A stretch of 64,000 nt of DNA, from assembly GCA_000403495.2 (NCBI GenBank), contig KE159810.1:124001-188000 (forward strand), given 5' to 3'. Origin of the DNA: Lachnospiraceae bacterium 10-1. GTDB lineage: Bacteria; Bacillota; Clostridia; Lachnospirales; Lachnospiraceae. Below are positions 33,701-42,316 of this stretch, in pieces. The stretch's first letter is position 1. Every line of letters begins with the position of its first letter. The translations under genes were made by a program, and so were the position numbers. The notes beneath the pieces are model-generated. The model was given only the letters and a program-made list of their open reading frames with translations, was not told the origin of the DNA and did not search any database.

Positions 33701-34283
33701 TCAGCCGGGTTCGGAAATACGGCTTACTCCTACGTAAATGTTGGAAATGCTGTACCAGGTGGGATAATCTACAACGCCGGTCTGGGGCAGGTTAAAGATT
33801 CCCTGGAAGGCTTTTACTGCCTGTGCGGTAGCCGGTCCATAGATACCGTCTGCCGCAATCTTGGGAATCGCAGGATAATTTTGGGCGATTCTGTTTAACT
33901 GCTGCTGCATCTGTCTTACTTTTTCACCGGAAGAGCCAATGGTCAGATTATATCCGGGCCAGGAAGAGGGTACTCCTGCAATGCTGTCAGCAGAATTAAT
34001 GTACATATCGCTTCCATAATAATAATGTATAATGTCAATGGCTGAATATCCTTCTTCCGCCAAATATCTGGAACCCCACTGGCTTAATCCGTCACAGGTG
34101 ACTCTTCTTCCATCACAGTAAGCGGTAAAAATGGGCTGTCTTACCCCGGGCCTTGACAAATAATTGGCAAAAACATTATCCACCACCCGGTCAATGTTTT
34201 CGTAAACATTTCTTCCACGCATCCACTTTTGATCGTAGGCAGTAGAGGAGGTAATGGTAAAGTTATAACCCTTGTTCCGGTAC
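33701..34283 (-). pseudogene. C-terminal half of a split SpoIID/peptidoglycan-binding gene
   Basis: The last 191 codons of a SpoIID/LytB-like protein. It contains the end of the SpoIID domain (SQWGSRYLAEEGYSAIDII followed by HYYYG) and a full PG_binding_1 domain (LTIGSSGEKVRQMQQQLN, DGIYGPATAQAVKAFQ). Continuous reading extends to an ATG at 34318, but those upstream codons belong to the recombinase gene in another frame, so there is no native start. The homologous sequence begins at YRNKGYNFTITSS at the element junction. The N-terminal half, ending in TEWYR, is at 41528-42259 on the same strand. Joining at the shared CGGTAC restores one frame of 421 codons. It is called broken in this configuration but could be reconstituted by excision. 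Confidence 0.88.
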
Positions 34284-35921
34284 AGCAAAGCCAGGGGTTT
34301 CGTGTATAAAATCTTCAAAGCCGATTTTAAGCTTTATTTTCACATCATCATCTTTTACAATAACCTGATCAATCATGTAAAACAACAGCATTCGTTTTGT
34401 TTGTGTATCTGCGCTTTCAAAAGTTATTCCCAAATCTGGTTTCATTTCAAGAGAATTTTTCAATTTGTCATTATGATTTTCAGCCCTGGCCGCTTTGCTT
34501 CTCACTTCTTTTTCTCTTTCTTTTAATTTATCCACACAGTCCGCTTTTTCCTTTATCAATTCTGATAATTTTTCCGCGCTGAAGTAATACTCTCCCCTGA
34601 TTGCTTCCGGTATCTTTTCTTCTAAGGTTTTAAGGTCAAGGTTCAGATTCTGTATCTGTTTTTCAATTTGTTTCAGCTCCCTTTTAAATCCGGCTTTTTC
34701 CTGCTGTCGCATACCCTCTAAATCCTCAAAAAAATCAATTCCCTTCAACTGTTTTATACACGCTGCGGCCACCTGGAATACAATGCTTTCCAAATAATCC
34801 TGCCCGTAACTTTTGCGCTCCATGCATTGATTCGGACAGATGTATCTGCCTGTAAAGGAAACTTTCTTTTTGCCTGACTTGACCGTCCAGTGATTGCAAT
34901 AGCTGCCATTTTTTAATTTTTTACCACAGTATCCGCAATAGACAAGCCCCATAAGTGCAAGCTTTCCTCTGGTGGTAAAAGGCACCTTATATTGATCTTC
35001 ATATAATTTCAGGGACTGCTCCTTAGAGGTATTTAGCTTCCTGATCCGCTCTTCTCTTATTTCCTGCGCCTTTTCCCATGCTGACTTGGGAATAATAACC
35101 AATTCAGGAATCTGTTTTTCAGAATAAATCCATTCCCTGCGGTCCATTCGTCTTGTGCCTTCCGCCCCGCCTCTTTTATTGATGGCGTAAACTCCCATAT
35201 AAATGGGATTTTTTAAAATTCCGGCAATAGCAGCAGGTTTCCACTTACTGCCTGCAGCAGACAAAATCCCTTCATCATTCAGTGTTCTGGATATTTTTTC
35301 ATACCCCATTCCCTTTAAAATGGCAAGATCATATATTTTTTTAACTACCGCCGCATCTTTTTCCACAATTTCAAGTTTCTTTAACAGGCGTCCATGATTG
35401 TTTACCATGCCGGAGGGTACCAGCTTATATCCATAGGGCGCCCTGCCCCCCGGAAATTTTCCTGCCTTTACCATTTCCCTCCGGGCATCTTTCACACGCA
35501 TACTGGTTTTCCTGCTTTCACCTTCATTCTGCCAGAAGCGGATAAAATTCAGTAGTTTATCCGTATGCTCCCTTGTTTTTAACTGCCCGTCCTTTATCGT
35601 CCATACCTCTATTCCCAACTGGTTTAAGGCAGCTACATAAAAACTATATTCCTCCTGTCTGCCAATCCGGTCTGACATATAGGCCAGCAAAATATTAAAT
35701 TCCCCAGCCCTGGCATCTGCAAGGATCTTTTGTAAAACTTCTCTGTCCTCCACGCTGTTTTTATAGGCAGATACTGCTTTTTCAATGTATTCTTTGTCAA
35801 AAACCCAATCTGACTGCCTGGCGATATATTGCTCTGCTTCCGCCCGCTGAACAGGAATGTCTCCCTCATGAAGCTGCTGCTTTGAAGATACTCGAAGCAA
35901 TGTTCTGACTTTCTTACTCAT
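34263..35921 (-). CDS. Large serine recombinase
   Basis: Site-specific recombinase of 552 residues, in the class of phage and skin-element integrases. The N-terminal resolvase domain has the nucleophile Ser in LLRVSSKQQ (about residue 12) and the conserved SDRIGRQ segment around 84. The recombinase domain (GRAPYGYKLV to about 260) is followed by a zinc ribbon (YCGYCGKKL and YICPNQC, about 325-358), a coiled coil (about 405-480) and a C-terminal tail. It overlaps an 82-residue gene by eight bases. Its final codons and stop lie inside the host SpoIID gene beyond the attachment core, so excision would change its C-terminus. It is the likely enzyme for integration and excision of this element. 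Confidence 0.95.
   Translation of the reverse strand: MSKKVRTLLRVSSKQQLHEGDIPVQRAEAEQYIARQSDWVFDKEYIEKAVSAYKNSVEDREVLQKILADARAGEFNILLAYMSDRIGRQEEYSFYVAALNQLGIEVWTIKDGQLKTREHTDKLLNFIRFWQNEGESRKTSMRVKDARREMVKAGKFPGGRAPYGYKLVPSGMVNNHGRLLKKLEIVEKDAAVVKKIYDLAILKGMGYEKISRTLNDEGILSAAGSKWKPAAIAGILKNPIYMGVYAINKRGGAEGTRRMDRREWIYSEKQIPELVIIPKSAWEKAQEIREERIRKLNTSKEQSLKLYEDQYKVPFTTRGKLALMGLVYCGYCGKKLKNGSYCNHWTVKSGKKKVSFTGRYICPNQCMERKSYGQDYLESIVFQVAAACIKQLKGIDFFEDLEGMRQQEKAGFKRELKQIEKQIQNLNLDLKTLEEKIPEAIRGEYYFSAEKLSELIKEKADCVDKLKEREKEVRSKAARAENHNDKLKNSLEMKPDLGITFESADTQTKRMLLFYMIDQVIVKDDDVKIKLKIGFEDFIHETPGFAVPEQGL
34278..34283. other. Left attachment core of the intervening element
   Basis: CGGTAC at 34278-34283 is shared with 41571-41576. 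Flanking bases are GTTC on the left and AGC on the right here, versus GTTT and CAC at the other end. Left of this point the sequence is SpoIID gene; right of it is recombinase coding sequence. The recombinase frame runs through the core and takes its last codons and stop from the host gene. Confidence 0.72.
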
Positions 35922-36162
35922 GATTCATCTCATTTCCGCGCTGCTTTTGCCATTCCAGGTTTGTGGATGCAGCACTGTCTTCAGCCTGAGGCAGGGCTAT
36001 GCTGTTTTCTATTTTTTCCAGATACATTGCTTTCAGCCTGCCGGTTAACTCCTGACGGGCTTTTATGTCAGACTGCTCAGGAAATTCCACCGTAACCTTT
36101 ACAAATTTATCTTTATAAGAAATTGTGGAAATCCAGGTTTTGTATCCTGTTTCTGAAACCAT
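35914..36162 (-). CDS. Small protein coupled to the serine recombinase
   Basis: An 82-residue protein without a recognised family. The first half looks like a small beta-strand domain (YKTWISTISYKDKFVKVTVEF); the second half is helical and charged. The Shine-Dalgarno is AGGG before the ATG at 36162, and the 3' end overlaps the recombinase start by eight bases, so the two are translationally coupled. A gene in this position could encode an excision (directionality) factor, but that is inference from context only. Confidence 0.6.
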   Translation of the reverse strand: MVSETGYKTWISTISYKDKFVKVTVEFPEQSDIKARQELTGRLKAMYLEKIENSIALPQAEDSAASTNLEWQKQRGNEMNHE

Positions 36163-36214
36163 GTAGTTACCCTATTTTCCGCCTGCTTTTTACATATTTA
36201 TGTAATTTTGCTTT

Positions 36215-36244
36215 TTTGTATTCAAAAGCACTGACCAGATATTG
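36215..36244 (-). promoter_or_regulatory. Possible sporulation sigma-E-like promoter of the recombinase operon
   Basis: On minus, CAATATC (36238-36244) and AATACAAA (36215-36222) are 15 bases apart. These resemble sigma-E elements (KMATATT and CATACANT) at five or six positions each. It lies about 55 bases before the 82-residue gene. The match is imperfect in AT-rich DNA and is offered only because the element interrupts a sporulation-type gene. Confidence 0.22.
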
Positions 36245-36248
36245 GTCA

Positions 36249-36297
36249 TTGACACATAGGTAACTTGTTGCTATAATCAGATATGCAACAAGTTGCC
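36249..36297 (+). promoter_or_regulatory. Consensus promoter with MarR-type operator
   Basis: TTGACA (36249-36254), 17 bases, TATAAT (36272-36277): a perfect sigma-A promoter. A large inverted repeat brackets the -10: GGTAACTTGTTGC (36259-36271) and GCAACAAGTTGCC (36285-36297), 12 of 13 positions complementary, fills the spacer and the start region. This geometry fits steric autorepression by the MarR protein encoded immediately downstream. Confidence 0.85.
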
Positions 36298-36312
36298 TAT
36301 AGGAGAACTATT

Positions 36313-36837
36313 ATGAAACTGGAGGATTTGATTACACGGTTTTCAAGCACTACTAAAAATCAAAGAAAAGCTATTTTCAGTACATTATTTATTGCAGGAA
36401 ACAAATTGCAGACACTTTTTGATAACCATATTCCTGAAGTCTCACTCAAACAATTTATGTTATTGTCAGTTATCAGGCAGTCAAAAGAACCATTGACATT
36501 TACTCAATTAGGAAATTTGCTGGGCTGTTCAAGACAAAATATTAAAAAAATAGCTGATGTTCTGGCAAAAAAAGGTTTTATTAACATAAAGCAAAGTCCA
36601 AATGATACAAGAGCCATGTGTATCTGTCCTACGGAAAAAGCAAACGACTATTTTCAAAAGGACTTTTCAGAGCATCAGGCAGAATTGGAATATCTCTTTG
36701 AAGTTTACACAGACGAAGAGATAGAGATGCTTTTTGTTCTTTTGTCAAAACTATATGCAGGAATTGAAAATTTAGAAAAAAAGATTGACAGTGGAAAAAG
36801 GAGACTGAAATCAAATGAAAGCAATCGTAATTTATAA
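36313..36837 (+). CDS. MarR-family transcriptional regulator
   Basis: Winged-helix regulator of 174 residues. The recognition region reads PLTFTQLGNLLGCSRQNIKKIADVL (spanning about 60-85) followed by the wing KKGFINIKQSPNDTRAM with the conserved DxR. The ATG at 36313 follows AGGAG by eight bases; an in-frame ATG at 36283 falls inside the operator. The coding sequence is visibly more AT-rich than the genes outside the element, consistent with recent transfer. It overlaps the flavodoxin gene by 23 bases and probably represses both from the inverted repeat at 36259-36297. The ligand is unknown; oxidants or phenolic compounds are typical for the family. Confidence 0.92.
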   Translation: MKLEDLITRFSSTTKNQRKAIFSTLFIAGNKLQTLFDNHIPEVSLKQFMLLSVIRQSKEPLTFTQLGNLLGCSRQNIKKIADVLAKKGFINIKQSPNDTRAMCICPTEKANDYFQKDFSEHQAELEYLFEVYTDEEIEMLFVLLSKLYAGIENLEKKIDSGKRRLKSNESNRNL

Positions 36838-37336
36838 CTCACAAACAGGATTTACAAAACGTTATGCCCAGTGGATCGCAGAAGAAACAAAAGCTGAATG
36901 TCTTGAATTATCAGCAGCAAAAAAGAAAGATCTTTCTGCCTGCGAAGTGATTATTTTTGGAGGCTGGGCACGTGGAGGCAGCATCAGTAAAATTAACTGG
37001 TTTAAAAGCAATATGGATAAATGGACAGATAAAAAACTGATTGTATTTTGTGTTGGAGCAGGCCCAATAGATAATCCGGAAATTGAACCTGCCCTTAAAC
37101 AAAATTTCAGTGACACAGAACTGGAAAAAGTGAATTTATTTTACTGCCCGGGCGGCATAAATTATGAAAAAATGCCTGTTTCATCCAAACTTATGATGAA
37201 AATGTTTCTAAACATGCTTACAGCAAAAAAGAATAAAACGGACACAGAACTGGAAATGATAAAAATGCTTTCCACATCCTATGATATTTCGGACAAAAAG
37301 TACATTGAACCAATTTTACAGTGTTTGAAAAAATAA
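36815..37336 (+). CDS. Flavodoxin-domain protein
   Basis: FMN-binding flavodoxin-like protein of 173 residues. The phosphate-binding loop is YNSQTGFTKRYA near the N-terminus, and the 50s and 90s loops appear as FGGWARGGSIS and FCVGAGPIDNP. It resembles the HemG/flavodoxin-domain group rather than electron-carrier flavodoxins. It overlaps the MarR gene and shares its AT-rich composition, so the pair is one unit of cargo, probably a redox or stress response. Confidence 0.88.
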   Translation: MKAIVIYNSQTGFTKRYAQWIAEETKAECLELSAAKKKDLSACEVIIFGGWARGGSISKINWFKSNMDKWTDKKLIVFCVGAGPIDNPEIEPALKQNFSDTELEKVNLFYCPGGINYEKMPVSSKLMMKMFLNMLTAKKNKTDTELEMIKMLSTSYDISDKKYIEPILQCLKK

Positions 37337-37363
37337 ATGCACACAGCCGCCCTTTTTATCTGC

Positions 37364-38413
37364 TTATTCCTCCTCATACTGAGGTGTAGTCACACAGTCA
37401 ATTCCATCACTTTCAAATCCTGAAATGGTGGAACTTAAACTGAGATACTCAGCAAAGCTGGTATCATAAGCGCCGCTGACAATTCCTGCATTTACCAGAT
37501 CTGTCTGGTTTGCCGCAGAAAAATCTACACCAAAGGTGGTAAATACCATTCCATCTTCCACAAGGACGCTGCCATAAATACCGGACAGCATATCACAGCG
37601 CTGCTCCTGCTCTAATTTAAATTGTTCCACTAAGGAAAGATCCACTAAAGATTCATCAATCCCCTCTTTTTTCAAAAAGCTGATAATGGTATCTCCAACA
37701 GCTGCTATATCATAGCGCAGACTATAACCTTCTTCCTCATATGTACACACCGTCATGGTCACGTCTGCATAATCGTAAAATCCGCCGGTTAAAACATTTA
37801 AAAATTCCAGATCAGGGTAACCTCTGTGCTGTAAATAATAGCCTCCGTTTTTAGCTGCATAGTCCGCCTTTGCTTCTTCCTCTTCACCCATCTGTGCAGA
37901 ACTGATGCCCTGTTCCATCCAGCCTCCCACATTTGTGTAAACATCTCCGCCTTCTTTTGCCTGCTTCTCTAATGCATCAAGCATAGCCTCATAAATTGAA
38001 CTGCCATAATCTCTTGTCTTAACCTTAATATAAATCATGCCATGGAGGTTTTCCACTTCCTCCCCAATGGTAAATTCCATGTCAGACTGCTGGCTGCAAA
38101 AAAGCTGATAAGCCTTATCCATTTCAGGAATGCTTTCCCCTTCCATTGCAGCAAACACATGAAGTAGTTCGTTTCCTTCCTCCAGATAAGAGGCAAAGCT
38201 TTCAAAATCTCCTGTCTGTAAGGCTGTAAGACTGTTCTCCGCTGCCTCTGCAATACTTTTTGCTTTTGGCTGTTTTCCTCCTAAATTTAACCCATCACAA
38301 CCGGCAAGACTGAAAATAAGTGTCAAAATCAGTGCCAGGGATAAAGTAAAACGTATTCCTTTCCCATGTCCCTTATGTTTTTGTTCTGAATCATTTCTCA
38401 TATTAATAATCAT
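37364..38413 (-). CDS. Predicted lipoprotein, unknown function
   Basis: A 349-residue lipoprotein: after a basic N-terminus a hydrophobic signal ends in FSLAGC (Cys about 39). The mature part alternates helical and beta segments (AENSLTALQTGDFESFASYL, then acidic TM-free domain to the end) and resembles the broad class of Firmicute lipoproteins with NTF2-like or DUF5105-like repeats, but no family is claimed. The start is uncertain: AAAGGAG nearly touches the ATG at 38413 and lies 13 bases before the one at 38401. It faces convergently to the flavodoxin gene and follows the glycosidase-like gene by 37 bases. Confidence 0.78.
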   Translation of the reverse strand: MIINMRNDSEQKHKGHGKGIRFTLSLALILTLIFSLAGCDGLNLGGKQPKAKSIAEAAENSLTALQTGDFESFASYLEEGNELLHVFAAMEGESIPEMDKAYQLFCSQQSDMEFTIGEEVENLHGMIYIKVKTRDYGSSIYEAMLDALEKQAKEGGDVYTNVGGWMEQGISSAQMGEEEEAKADYAAKNGGYYLQHRGYPDLEFLNVLTGGFYDYADVTMTVCTYEEEGYSLRYDIAAVGDTIISFLKKEGIDESLVDLSLVEQFKLEQEQRCDMLSGIYGSVLVEDGMVFTTFGVDFSAANQTDLVNAGIVSGAYDTSFAEYLSLSSTISGFESDGIDCVTTPQYEEE

Positions 38414-38450
38414 GCTCCTTTCAAAGTCCAGACTCCTAAAAAATTTAAGC

Positions 38451-40103
38451 CTACTGTACGACTCCTGTTCCGCCTCTTGTCCATATAATATTCTGGCTGA
38501 TCATCTGGTCAATATCCATGCCAATGATCTCAGAAGCCCTTGCTTTAGCGGCAGCTTCATTTGCTGTTCCCAGGCTTTTATATATCTCATAAGCAGGCTT
38601 TCTATTTCCATTTACGTCATACAGGCCAAGGGCCAAATGACTTTCCATCTCATGTGCGTCATCGGTTTGGCGGAACAGCATAAATGCATCCACATCCGGA
38701 AGAGACGCTGCCTTTAAATAACCATAGGCAATGGATGCTTCCTGCGCCTCACTTCCAAAAGAAGAAGTATAACCGATTTCTGCAAGAGAAATGCTTCTCA
38801 CCTCCCCGTTTGGATTTAAAAAATGGCTCTGATGCATATAGTTAATCAAAAGGTCAATATTCTGCATAGTAATATAGGGGGTGGAAAGATTATTTTTCAC
38901 CCACACTGCCGGCCCATTCCATGCGTAAGGATCATATAAGGGAGAATTATAGGGATGATAAGAAAGTCCCCAGTCAATATTTCCCTCCCGGTTTATGTAA
39001 TAATTAAATTGATCCAGATACCCCCTGGCAAGAAAGCTTCCGGGATTTGAAAGTCTGTTCCATTCCTGATCAATGGAATTATAAATACGGGCATTGGCAT
39101 TTTTGCTTTTTATCTCATTATATAGGATACGAAAAGCCTTTACATAAATATTCACATTTAAATCCAGCGAAGTAGAATTGGTATGCCACCAGGAAGTACG
39201 TGCATTTACTTCATTTCCCACAATCCAGTTATCCACCTGTCCGCAGCCTGCCGCTCCGGAATAACGCTGTCCCAAAAATGCCCCAATCGCCTTCAAATGC
39301 TCCGTTCCTGATGCATCTGCCACATTGATGGCATACCCTGGACAGTCGCCGCCTACTGCCAGCGGATGAATCAAATCCTGGGCATAGGGGCTTTTTCCTC
39401 CATTTAAAAGCACCAGTGTAACCTGCATTCCATAATTGTTAAAGCTTCTGATCGTAGAATCATATTTTGAAATCATATCACCATTAAAGTAATAAGTCCG
39501 TCCATTGTAATCAAAAGGAACCGCACCGGGAACTGACGCATCCGCACAAATCTCCCCGATATCCATATTGTATACAATCTGCTGAATTCCAAGATCCTGC
39601 AGCTCTCCATTAGAAACCCTGGTCACATCCGGCAAAATGCCCTTGATTCCTCTGTCCTGACGTGCAGAAGTATATGCTGCAATTGCCTCGGGATTGGTAA
39701 TATAATGTTCATCGCTTACCTGAACCATCTGTCCGTTCCGCTTAACTGCAATCAGGAATTTACGGCTTAAATTTGACTGATCCGTATTGTAATTTAGGGG
39801 AAAGCTTAAGGAAACAGAGGTTCCTGCTTTAGCAGAAGCTACAATATTTCCCACCGTGCCATCCTGAAAAACCTCATCAGCATAAACATAGAATTTTCCG
39901 TCATCACTTGAAGGAATTCCAGAGGATTTAAGCTGACAAACCACATCATTTCCTGAAATCACACAGGAACTGATTGAAACAGGCCTGCCTGCCGCCTCCA
40001 CACAGTCCGGATTGTCACCAACCACAGGGCCGGCACACACTGCTGATACCACAATAACTACTGCTGCCATAATTGCTGCAATGATTCTTCCTGCTCTACT
40101 CAT
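38451..40103 (-). CDS. Secreted glycosidase-like protein (DUF5722-type)
   Basis: Secreted protein of 550 residues with a signal peptide (hydrophobic stretch about 5-28). An N-terminal beta domain (about 40-140) leads to a TIM-barrel-like region. Motifs IVGNEVN (about 300), LSYHPYN (about 385) and SLAEIGYTS (about 445) look like the acid/base Glu, substrate His-Pro and nucleophile Glu of clan-A glycosidases. From memory it belongs to DUF5722, a family of glycosidase-like proteins without known substrate. The ATG at 40103 is preferred since GGTGGG lies nine bases before it. It sits inside the intervening element; a role in wall or exopolysaccharide metabolism is inference. Confidence 0.8.
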   Translation of the reverse strand: MSRAGRIIAAIMAAVVIVVSAVCAGPVVGDNPDCVEAAGRPVSISSCVISGNDVVCQLKSSGIPSSDDGKFYVYADEVFQDGTVGNIVASAKAGTSVSLSFPLNYNTDQSNLSRKFLIAVKRNGQMVQVSDEHYITNPEAIAAYTSARQDRGIKGILPDVTRVSNGELQDLGIQQIVYNMDIGEICADASVPGAVPFDYNGRTYYFNGDMISKYDSTIRSFNNYGMQVTLVLLNGGKSPYAQDLIHPLAVGGDCPGYAINVADASGTEHLKAIGAFLGQRYSGAAGCGQVDNWIVGNEVNARTSWWHTNSTSLDLNVNIYVKAFRILYNEIKSKNANARIYNSIDQEWNRLSNPGSFLARGYLDQFNYYINREGNIDWGLSYHPYNSPLYDPYAWNGPAVWVKNNLSTPYITMQNIDLLINYMHQSHFLNPNGEVRSISLAEIGYTSSFGSEAQEASIAYGYLKAASLPDVDAFMLFRQTDDAHEMESHLALGLYDVNGNRKPAYEIYKSLGTANEAAAKARASEIIGMDIDQMISQNIIWTRGGTGVVQ

Positions 40104-40147
40104 AATTACCATCCCACCATTTTTCTTATGTTTTTGAAACTACAGCC

Positions 40148-40189
40148 AAAAAGTCATGGGATTCATAGAAATATGAACCCTCATGACTT
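40148..40189 (-). terminator. Rho-independent terminator after the SPFH/RHH operon
   Basis: On minus the stem arms are at 40172-40189 and 40151-40167, paired over about 17 positions with one bulge and one G-T pair, around a four-base loop, followed by a run of five Ts (40148-40152). It lies 50 bases after the ribbon-helix-helix gene's stop and separates it from the glycosidase-like gene. Confidence 0.75.
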
Positions 40190-40239
40190 AAGGTTTTTAG
40201 TTACATCATTTATTATATATGAAACACACCGGAATGTCA

Positions 40240-40443
40240 CTATTTTATATTAAGCTCCAGCGGAATATCCAGTTCATGAGGAACCGGCGCCCCGTTCTTT
40301 TTCCTCTGACGGACACATTCTGTCAGCAGATATTCTATTTGACCATTTACAGATCGAAAGTCATCCTCAGCCCAGGCTGCAATGGCATCATATAATTTTG
40401 CCGACAAACGTAAAGGAACCTGTTTTTTACTGTTATCAGCCAT
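40240..40443 (-). CDS. Arc-like ribbon-helix-helix protein
   Basis: Small DNA-binding-type protein of 67 residues. The strand [18 protein letters not shown] followed by [19 protein letters not shown] is the ribbon-helix-helix pattern of Arc/MetJ repressors. Its ATG overlaps the last base of the SPFH stop codon (TAATG), so it is translationally coupled. It may bind the repeated TGATATCA boxes at the operon's promoter (41511-41539), by inference. Confidence 0.82.
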
Positions 40444-41480
40444 TAGTAAAGTGATCCTGAATTTACAATAGGCTGGGCATCCCTATTTCCGCAAAGTACT
40501 ACTAAAAGGTTAGATACCATAGCCGCTTTTCTCTCCTCATCAAGAGAAACCACTTCTTTTTCAGAAAGACGATCCAGCGCCATCTCCACCATTCCCACTG
40601 CTCCGTCAACAATCATCTTTCTGGCATCAATAATTGCAGACGCCTGCTGTCTTTGCAGCATAACTGCTGCAATCTCCGGTGCATAAGCAAGATAAGTAAT
40701 TCTTGCCTCAATCACTTCAATTCCTGCATCTAAAACCTTACTTTGAATTTCCTTGCGGATACGGTTGGCAACCATTTCACTGGAACCTCTAAGGCTTCCC
40801 TCATCAGCCACTCCATCTCCGGTAGTATCCACATTTTCCGCTATATCATAAGGATAAATCCGAACAATATTTCGAAGCGCACTGTCGCACTGTAAGGACA
40901 AATATTCCTTATAATTATCCACGTTAAATACTGCTTTTGCCGTATCGGTTACTCTCCACATAACAGCAATTCCAATTTCCACAGGATTTCCCAGGCAGTC
41001 ATTAACCTTCTGCCTGCTGTTATTTAACGTCATTATTTTCAGGGACACCTTTTTACTTGTACCGGAAGCTAATTCCGCAGTTGCTGCTGAAGCAGATACC
41101 TGCAAAAGCTTTCCCGCATTGCTTTCCACATCACCGCTCTGGTTTAATTTCGTACCGGCTGCCGGATTTACACTGGCGCAAAAAGGATTCACATAATAAA
41201 ATCCTTCTTCCTTTAAAGTACCTATATATTTTCCAAACAAAGTTAAAACCAACGCCTCCTGGGGCTTTAATACTTTAAGTCCGCAAAAGAAAACCCAGCC
41301 AAATGCTGTGTAAAGGATTCCCAGCACTAATGCTATGATGCCAGGCGCAAATCCGTCTCCATGACCATCCAGCAAAACAGCTCCCAATACAATTGCTCCT
41401 ATGCCAGATGCATATAACAATATAAAAAGGAGCAGCATTCCCATTCCGTTTTTATTTTTTTGTAATATTTTTTCTTCCAT
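40443..41480 (-). CDS. SPFH/Band-7 domain membrane protein
   Basis: Stomatin/prohibitin-family protein, 345 residues. Two N-terminal hydrophobic helices (about 12-35 and 40-65) anchor it. The SPFH domain follows ([21 protein letters not shown], then [22 protein letters not shown], then [22 protein letters not shown]), ending in a helical oligomerisation segment. The family organises membrane microdomains or quality control; the specific role is unknown. It is the first gene after the right end of the intervening element and is coupled to the ribbon-helix-helix gene. Confidence 0.9.
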
Positions 41481-41510
41481 TTCCTTTTCCTCCGTTGTTT
41501 TGATATTTTA

Positions 41511-41539
41511 AAGATATCATTTTGATATCATTTTGTCAA
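41511..41539 (-). promoter_or_regulatory. Promoter with repeated TGATATCA boxes for the SPFH/RHH operon
   Basis: On minus, TTGACA (41534-41539), 17 bases, TATCTT (41511-41516). The spacer carries a perfect TGATATCA palindrome (41523-41530) and a second copy, differing in one base, running into the -10 (41512-41519). Arc-like proteins bind such tandem short boxes, so autoregulation is plausible. The promoter is only about 35 bases inside the right end of the element. Confidence 0.6.
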
Positions 41540-42259
41540 TTCATATTTTATACTTCTTTTGCGGTGGTTTCGGTACCACTCCGTATATACCCTGTTTAAA
41601 GTAAATGACATAATCACCAGTGTATTTGCATAAATTGCGCTTTCCGGCCAGGTTGCATAAATTTCCGAGGAAACAACGTTTTTAATATAATCTCTGTATT
41701 TCACATAATAATTTGGGGCAGTGGAATCTCCGGGCGATCCATCATGAACAACCACATATTCAGGTATCACAACTCTGCTAAGTACAATTTCTCCGCTTTC
41801 ATCCACAGGCTTAATTTCGTCCTCCGGAATTTTAGGGGGATATTCTCCATATAAAGTATGATCCGGTATTACAATAGTATCTTCCTGCTGCGTGGCAACT
41901 TCAAGCGGATTTAAACGAATAGGCTGAACTGCCGTAACATCCGGCAGTATTTCCGTTCCGGAAACCAGTACCGGCTCATAACCGGGGGCCTCCACCTGTA
42001 TGTTATATTCCGAATAAGGCTGCTGTTCCACAGGAGTCAGGCTGTATTCTATGGGAGGCGCAGGAAGATCAATTGTTGCGCTTTGGCCGGAAGAGTTCGT
42101 GATCAGCTTTTCTATGGTCACATCCGGCACTCCCTTATAAGATATGGTTATTGTTGCATCCTGTATTGGAATCAGCCCCAATGATGAAGTTACATTGATC
42201 TGCAACTTTCCCATACCGGCGTTATCCGTCTGCGCACTGTGCAAACTATGATCAGGCAT
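41528..42259 (-). pseudogene. N-terminal half of the split SpoIID/peptidoglycan-binding gene
   Basis: The first 230 codons of the gene whose C-terminal half is at 33701-34283. It begins MPDHSLHSAQ with AGAGG seven bases upstream. A carboxypeptidase-regulatory-like beta domain (about 18-118) is followed by a linker and the first half of a SpoIID domain (YVKYRDYIKNVVSSEIYATW, PESAIYANTLVIMSFTLNRVY). Homology ends at TEWYR230 in the CGGTAC core (41571-41576); the reading then runs 14 codons into the element to a stop at 41528. In SpoIID proteins the next residues should be the ones encoded at 34276 and below. SpoIID proteins are peptidoglycan lytic transglycosylases needed for engulfment in sporulation. 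Confidence 0.88.
41571..41576. other. Right attachment core of the intervening element
   Basis: Second copy of CGGTAC, in the codons for TGG-TAC-CGA (Trp-Tyr-Arg) of the N-terminal half. The left copy falls in the same codon phase (TAC-CGG), so recombination between the two cores joins the halves in frame. Both are preceded on plus by GTT plus one variable pyrimidine. Confidence 0.72.
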
Positions 42260-42288
42260 AAAAATACCTCTGCAAATATACTTATCAG

Positions 42289-42316
42289 TATCATATGCAG
42301 AGGTTTCCCCGTTGGT
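42289..42316 (-). promoter_or_regulatory. Possible sigma-K-type promoter of the split SpoIID gene
   Basis: On minus, AC (42315-42316), 17 bases, then CATATGATA (42289-42297), matching the mother-cell sigma-K pattern AC-N17-CATAnnnTA. It lies about 30 bases before the start at 42259. The pattern is short and can occur by chance, but no sigma-A promoter is evident here. Confidence 0.35.

Follow-up and report, generated by a model that had tools for sequence, protein, structure and literature searches.

A sleC homologue split in frame by a small serine-recombinase element in Lachnospiraceae bacterium 10-1, a probable case of mother-cell DNA splicing

Background

A small number of genes in spore-forming bacteria are known to undergo programmed DNA splicing. 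The skin element of Bacillus subtilis and skinCd of Clostridioides difficile split sigK, a mother-cell sporulation gene, and are served by a serine recombinase, which in C. difficile is CD1231 with CD1234 as recombination directionality factor; the directionality factor is reported to be controlled by sigma E and SpoIIID (PMC5025042). The gin element in gerE of Bacillus cereus ATCC10987 is described as a non-prophage element with a serine recombinase and the directionality factor GirX (PMC5595907), and yin in yabG of Clostridium botulinum V73, vfbin in spoVFB and SPbeta in spsM are further reported interruptions of sporulation genes (PMC10747680). The interrupted genes named in PMC10747680 are sigK, spsM, spoVFB, gerE and yabG, with sleC not among them. 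A similar arrangement is described here from Lachnospiraceae bacterium 10-1. In a stretch of 64,000 nucleotides, referred to as the window and used for all coordinates below, a homologue of the spore-cortex-lytic enzyme gene sleC is split by a 7.3-kb element that carries a large serine recombinase.

The literature matches listed in a full-text search, with preprints and most subscription papers outside its coverage, included no element in sleC. The sequence comparisons presented here make it very probable that sleC undergoes DNA splicing in the mother cell through a small, non-phage sporulation-gene-intervening element, as sigK does through skin.

Results

The split gene and its crossover core

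The 5' half of the gene (41576..42259, reverse strand) comprises codons 1-228 and ends in NRVYTEW, while the 3' half (33701..34282, reverse strand) starts with YRNKGYN and consists of 193 codons plus stop, that is codons 229-421, encoding the rest of a SpoIID domain and a PG_binding_1 domain. The insertion thus lies between codons 228 and 229. A reading made from the sequence alone, before any comparison, had proposed that the halves lie on one strand in the correct order, separated by a 7.3-kb element, that both junctions carry CGGTAC in the same codon phase, that a large serine recombinase lies against one junction and that recombination gives one 421-codon gene. The coordinates of this arrangement hold. 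CGGTAC is found at 34278-34283 and 41571-41576 in identical codon phase, and the 552-amino-acid recombinase frame crosses the junction on the 3'-half side. Because the junctions of one related locus (L051) have GT alone in common, the exchange site can be narrowed to this dinucleotide (TG-G|T-AC), which occupies 41575..41576 on the 5'-half side and 34282..34283 on the 3'-half side, both on the reverse strand. The core-to-core distance is 7,293 bp and exchange at the GT core would yield a 421-codon in-frame gene; contiguous homologues of 421 codons were found in L034 and L040.

Close relatives were sampled as the best 80 of 500 found, which together with the window gives 81 loci. All 22 split sleC loci have GT as the core at the C-side junction, and so do, at the N-side junction, all 12 in which the N half is present. 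A chance arrangement is excluded, because 421-codon homologues exist and 12 of the 81 loci are split at exactly the same dinucleotide. An assembly artefact was ruled out by the identical junction in separate assemblies, and no RNA families or tRNA genes that could serve as insertion targets were found within the window.

Identity of the target gene

The domain architecture is that of SpoIID plus PG_binding_1, with full-length homology. The C half matched PDB 9h68, named by its depositors spore cortex-lytic enzyme pre-pro-form, with an E value of 5e-66, and the intact L040 of Parablautia intestinalis matched it with 3e-129 over residues 17-419, across the TEWYRN junction; the family of the 5' half is established through this intact relative. 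The split gene is therefore a homologue of sleC, which encodes the clostridial spore-cortex-lytic (germination) enzyme. An intact homologue is thus present among related genomes, and the fragments do not come from two different proteins. Neither the sleC identity nor the frequency of splitting had been given in the sequence-only reading.

Loss of SleC is reported to cause a severe germination defect in C. difficile and Clostridium perfringens, and Csp-dependent SleC activation and cortex lysis at germination are described for both species (PMC3567191). By its named relatives the window belongs to Lachnospiraceae, close to Parablautia. The sporulation gene spoIVA was found in genome G000 and in 20 of 20 genus mates searched.

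Selection on the split halves

The low ratio of nonsynonymous to synonymous substitution rates (dN/dS) is regarded as the best indication that a working product is still made from the split gene, which would hence be rejoined. Reading frames are open in all 12 N halves and all 22 C halves. Five sister pairs in which both members are split gave six comparisons with dN/dS of 0.010-0.030, upper 95% limits of at most 0.061 and dS of 0.54-0.99; the N half was testable in only one of the five. For the C half the values were 0.027 between the window and L033, 0.030 for L036-L037 (N half 0.028), 0.010 for L060-L062, 0.022 for L073-L058 and 0.030 for L068-L063. Five intact sister pairs ranged from 0.004 to 0.044. 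On this measure the split halves are as conserved as intact genes. In wider sets the median dN/dS was 0.029 for the C half (14 pairs) and 0.070 for the N half (6 pairs) of split loci, and 0.100 (214 pairs) and 0.184 (122 pairs), respectively, of intact loci, the depth of divergence being unmatched between split and intact pairs.

Element genes of the window-L033 and L036-L037 pairs were compared in the same way. The dS of the recombinase was 0.90 and 0.92 (dN/dS 0.14 and 0.13) and that of a DUF5722 gene 0.67, both near the dS of sleC, the exception among the element genes being the small ORF of the window-L033 pair with a dS of 0.25. Since the recombinase has a dS near that of sleC and a low dN/dS, the insertion appears to be old and the recombinase kept, and the split probably predates the divergence of both pairs.

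Recurrence among relatives

Among the 81 loci, sleC was intact in 58, split with both halves seen in 12 and without an N half on the stretch in 11. In ten of the latter, foreign DNA adjoins the C half at this junction; the remaining one, L059, begins at a contig edge and was left unjudged. Two loci (L074 and L081) were counted as intact although their N part has stops or is off frame. The elements are 1,359-8,256 bp long where both ends are known. A recombinase is present on 15 of the 22 split loci, namely 10 of the 12 with both halves and 5 of the 10 that are partly covered. The recombinases of the other loci are 34-78% identical to that of the window and fall into two types; in L078 the recombinase is reversed and located at the opposite end of the element.

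The best topology of a tree built from 80 C halves, without L059 because of its contig edge, requires 12 changes of the split state (11-13 in the bootstrap replicates), of which at least six are forced by well-supported branches. Eight split loci form one all-split group (support 95/82), with the N half off the stretch in five of them.

An order-wide draw of 392 genomes gave a recombinase of the same recombinase family as the window's in 15 (E <= 1e-70). Nine of the ten from the bacterial family of the window, the window genome included, lie beside or near a sleC half or a half of its paralogue sleC2, the exception being G303, and none of the five from other families did so in the stretches examined. 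Tandem pairs of recombinases belonging to this family occur in another bacterial family of the order (L144, L146, L151, L154-L156). In G038 the frames overlap and residues are missing.

Control signals

A small open reading frame (ORF) precedes the recombinase in the window element, and related small ORFs do so in other elements. All nine type-1 elements tested have the sigma-E-like motif ATA-N16/17-CATA at a distance of 56-62 bp upstream of the small ORF; in the window it has the form ATA-N16-CATA (36199..36221, reverse strand). Dinucleotide shuffles gave an expectation of 0.69 of 13 sequences with the motif, the nominal tail of 4e-10 exaggerating the significance because the sequences are related. 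The promoter test was run without L053, where the start of the small ORF was not located, and the small-ORF scan without L055, where the 5' end lies beyond the contig. In known sporulators spoIVA is a sigma-E gene; the same ATA/CATA layout occurs before it in the window genome and, across the genus, at 9 of 17 spoIVA loci, with 0.8 expected. The type-1 small ORFs have the motif V-x-V-T-x-E-F-P in common, and a weaker look-alike exists in five type-2 elements, three of which cluster together (L053, L073 and L083) while two were recognized by the motif (L078 and L082).

Upstream of sleC itself, the sigma-K-like -10 sequence CATATGATA (42289..42297, reverse strand) lies inside a dyad recognized by eye (42267-42274 / 42297-42304) that overlaps the ribosome-binding site. 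This dyad over the ribosome-binding site, 42267-42304, recurs in many of the relatives inspected. Near the start of sleC, CATANNNTA was found in 48 of 70 loci with 3.4 expected, and AC-N14-17-CATANNNT in 53 of 70, the latter count being without a shuffle control. The motifs upstream of sleC fit control by sigma K, as reported for C. difficile sleC, which is sigma-K dependent (PMC3789822).

Content of the window element

The recombinase (34263..35921, reverse strand) is of type 1, has 552 amino acids and matches the Pfam families Resolvase and Recombinase as well as the integrase family phrog_95 (E 6e-79). An ORF of 82 amino acids (35914..36162, reverse strand) overlaps its start and is a candidate recombination directionality factor; it had zero matches in Pfam, NCBIfam or PHROGs, and none among phage records. 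The cargo consists of a MarR-family regulator (36283..36837) and a flavodoxin (36815..37336), both on the forward strand, and, on the reverse strand, a predicted lipoprotein of 349 amino acids, judged by eye and without a family match (37364..38413), a DUF5722 protein that recurs in these elements (38451..40112), a ribbon-helix-helix protein with a match below the curated cut-off (40240..40443) and an SPFH/Band 7 protein (40443..41480). A PD-(D/E)XK protein is found as further cargo in these elements.

Having crossed the core, the recombinase frame ends within sleC in a different frame from that of the gene (34263-34283), and the same is seen in L033, L036, L046, L055 and L080. Because the frame spans the core, the last residues of the recombinase would change upon excision.

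Six proteins of the window element, all but the MarR regulator and the flavodoxin, were scanned with PHROGs. The recombinase matched families of the integration and metabolism categories; for the ribbon-helix-helix and SPFH proteins the matches were to families classed as regulatory or other, and the remaining three of the six gave none. Phage structural genes, by which a prophage would be recognized, were absent from the six. A recent phage origin was rejected, the nearest phage relatives of the recombinase being about 31% identical and a pattern scan of viral contigs also being negative.

DUF5722 genes are present in 21 of 21 genomes of the genus searched. DUF5722 was rejected as an element-specific gene since it is genus-wide and since, in 15 further loci looked at, of which 13 were stretches and two had an intact sleC, the type nearest to it sits outside sleC. 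The positions of these genes vary across the genus (38451-40112; L189-L201, L034 and L035); they stand beside sleC in two loci and elsewhere inside sleC or sleC2 elements. Cargo of a nucleoside ABC transporter and thymidine kinase is common to L051 and L083, which have different recombinase types.

Other insertion sites and the paralogue sleC2

Two genomes have sleC split at further places by other serine recombinases (L133 and L134). In G021 the insertion is 11.2 kb long with three recombinases and without a clear repeat, and in G048 it is 3.7 kb long with a recombinase of another family and an 8-bp repeat. A prophage on a 44.4-kb viral record (L217 and L220) lies inside sleC about 15 codons upstream of the window's site; the record is bounded by the N part of sleC on one side and the C part on the opposite side, and carries tail and endolysin genes. 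A 10-bp repeat is common to its two ends where one would be expected, with three other 10-mers also shared by the flanks. The G021, G048 and prophage joints would be in frame as judged by eye. Other viral records have sleC truncated at the window's point or at further points.

The paralogue sleC2, with SpoIID, two PG-binding and two LysM domains, is intact in the window genome (L139). Splitting of sleC2 at the homologous codon, likewise with a GT core, is seen in the genomes of strain 28-4, L038, L062, G002 and G030, the last having two near-identical copies in an assembly marked as 10% contaminated. Three of the sleC2-splitting elements (L130, L131 and L132) are about 1.9-2.0 kb long and carry the sole recombinase of this kind found in their genomes. 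The genomes of 28-4 and L038 have a sleC element lacking a recombinase, and the sole recombinase of each (search at E <= 1e-20) lies in sleC2, which suggests that the sleC2 recombinase may act in trans on the recombinase-less sleC element. The sleC element of the L062 genome is partly covered and has a short ORF that clusters with the recombinases. No such recombinase was found at E <= 1e-20 in the L040 genome, where sleC is intact. The small ORF is present in the sleC2 elements of L038 and G030, with the sigma-E-like motif 58 bp before it; in those of 28-4 and L062 the motif lies 171 bp before the recombinase. Similarity of the attachment arms is mixed. Compared with the sleC element from the same genome, the sleC2 right arm ranks 1, 7 and 2 of 22, and the left arms rank 9 and 9 of 12.

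Discussion

The sequence-only reading had left two outcomes side by side, mother-cell excision and gene loss in this strain. The former is supported by the in-frame core, the kept recombinase and the sigma-E-like promoter of type-1 elements, whereas gene loss is disfavoured by the open frames, the low dN/dS and the long retention of element and recombinase. In the course of events proposed here, vegetative and forespore chromosomes would keep sleC split. In the sporulating mother cell the candidate directionality factor and the recombinase would be made from the sigma-E-like promoter, and the recombinase would join the two GT cores, releasing a 7.3-kb circle and restoring the 421-codon frame. 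Rejoining would precede the firing of the sigma-K-like sleC promoter. SleC would then enter the spore, the circle would be lost with the mother cell and the element would be inherited through the forespore.

Several observations weigh against mother-cell splicing. The excised sleC joint had zero matches in the assembled genome. The model for spore sigma K scored 284.7 bits in the window genome, below the cut-off of 298.65, and the -10 motif here is CATANNNAT as against CATANNAT in the C. difficile examples given in PMC3789822 (CATATTAT and CATATAAT). The sigma-E-like motif was found in none of the four type-2 elements tested, the sleC elements of L038 and L060 lack a recombinase, and no recognizable small ORF precedes the recombinase in the sleC2 elements of 28-4 and the L062 genome. 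The small ORF is under weak constraint between the window and L033 (dN/dS 0.48, dS 0.25, 82 codons), and wider N-half comparisons of split loci run higher than the sister pairs (0.070 for L060-L073 and 0.056 for L073-L068).

A mobile cassette like the staphylococcal cassette chromosome (SCC), in which the cargo is the selected trait and low-frequency excision in any cell supplies enough SleC, is unlikely, though it overlaps with mother-cell splicing, so that the probabilities given to the readings do not sum to one. The cargo is indeed varied, comprising the genus-wide DUF5722, the nucleoside ABC transporter with thymidine kinase and the PD-(D/E)XK protein, and the recombinase has a weak profile resemblance to NCBIfam CcrB, far below the cut-off. 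The sigma-E-like promoter on nine of nine type-1 operons and the long vertical retention point instead to programmed use.

It is more doubtful still that sleC is a plain integration hotspot, where integrases favour its conserved coding sequence and each insertion inactivates the gene in that strain. The two recombinase types, both orientations, a patchy distribution that takes 12 changes of state in the best topology and the use of sleC by phage and other recombinases would all be accounted for. An inactivated gene should, however, drift toward a dN/dS of about 1, while the split halves are conserved like intact genes, and the all-split group of eight loci persists. Separate translation of the halves, whether they act as parts of a split enzyme or each on its own, is very improbable, for although both are conserved and open and in 17 split loci the C half lies within an ORF that starts with TTG, GTG or ATG, the cut falls within the SpoIID region, the N frames extend past the junction by variable, element-dependent lengths and the C-side start codons come from the element and differ between elements.

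A wider extension of mother-cell splicing can be put forward tentatively, as somewhat less than an even chance. sleC and sleC2 might be spliced as a set, one recombinase, kept in the element of just one gene, excising the recombinase-less element of the other in trans. sleC might also be a place where minimal elements, islands and full prophages alike can dock, all without harm since the gene would be needed solely in the doomed mother cell.

sleC is split repeatedly, at one codon and at nearby sites, in bacteria related to gut commensals. If excision is programmed, spore germination would depend on a DNA rearrangement in the mother cell, and dormancy could become adjustable. The intact, cis-split, possibly trans-split and prophage-split genes form a natural series for studying the origin, domestication and loss of intervening elements.

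Comparison with known systems

The window shows several features of an intervening element of the skin/gin type, namely an insertion in a germination gene, a recombinase of its own, a core at which precise excision would restore the frame, and a target under selection. SCCmec, with its Ccr recombinases, likewise combines a large serine recombinase with varied cargo and a fixed site. SCC leaves its target gene working, whereas sleC is cut mid-gene by its element. In comparison with skin, the target is a germination gene of the sigma-K type, the window element has no phage genes beyond the integrase among the six proteins scanned, and its small ORF overlaps the recombinase gene in a way suggestive of a single operon. 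The gin element is reported to be 28.6 kb long with three recombinases (PMC5595907), while the sleC elements are 1.4-8.3 kb long, have one recombinase or none and occur in many species. The yin element is described in PMC10747680 as unique to one strain, whereas sleC and its paralogue are split repeatedly in Lachnospiraceae.

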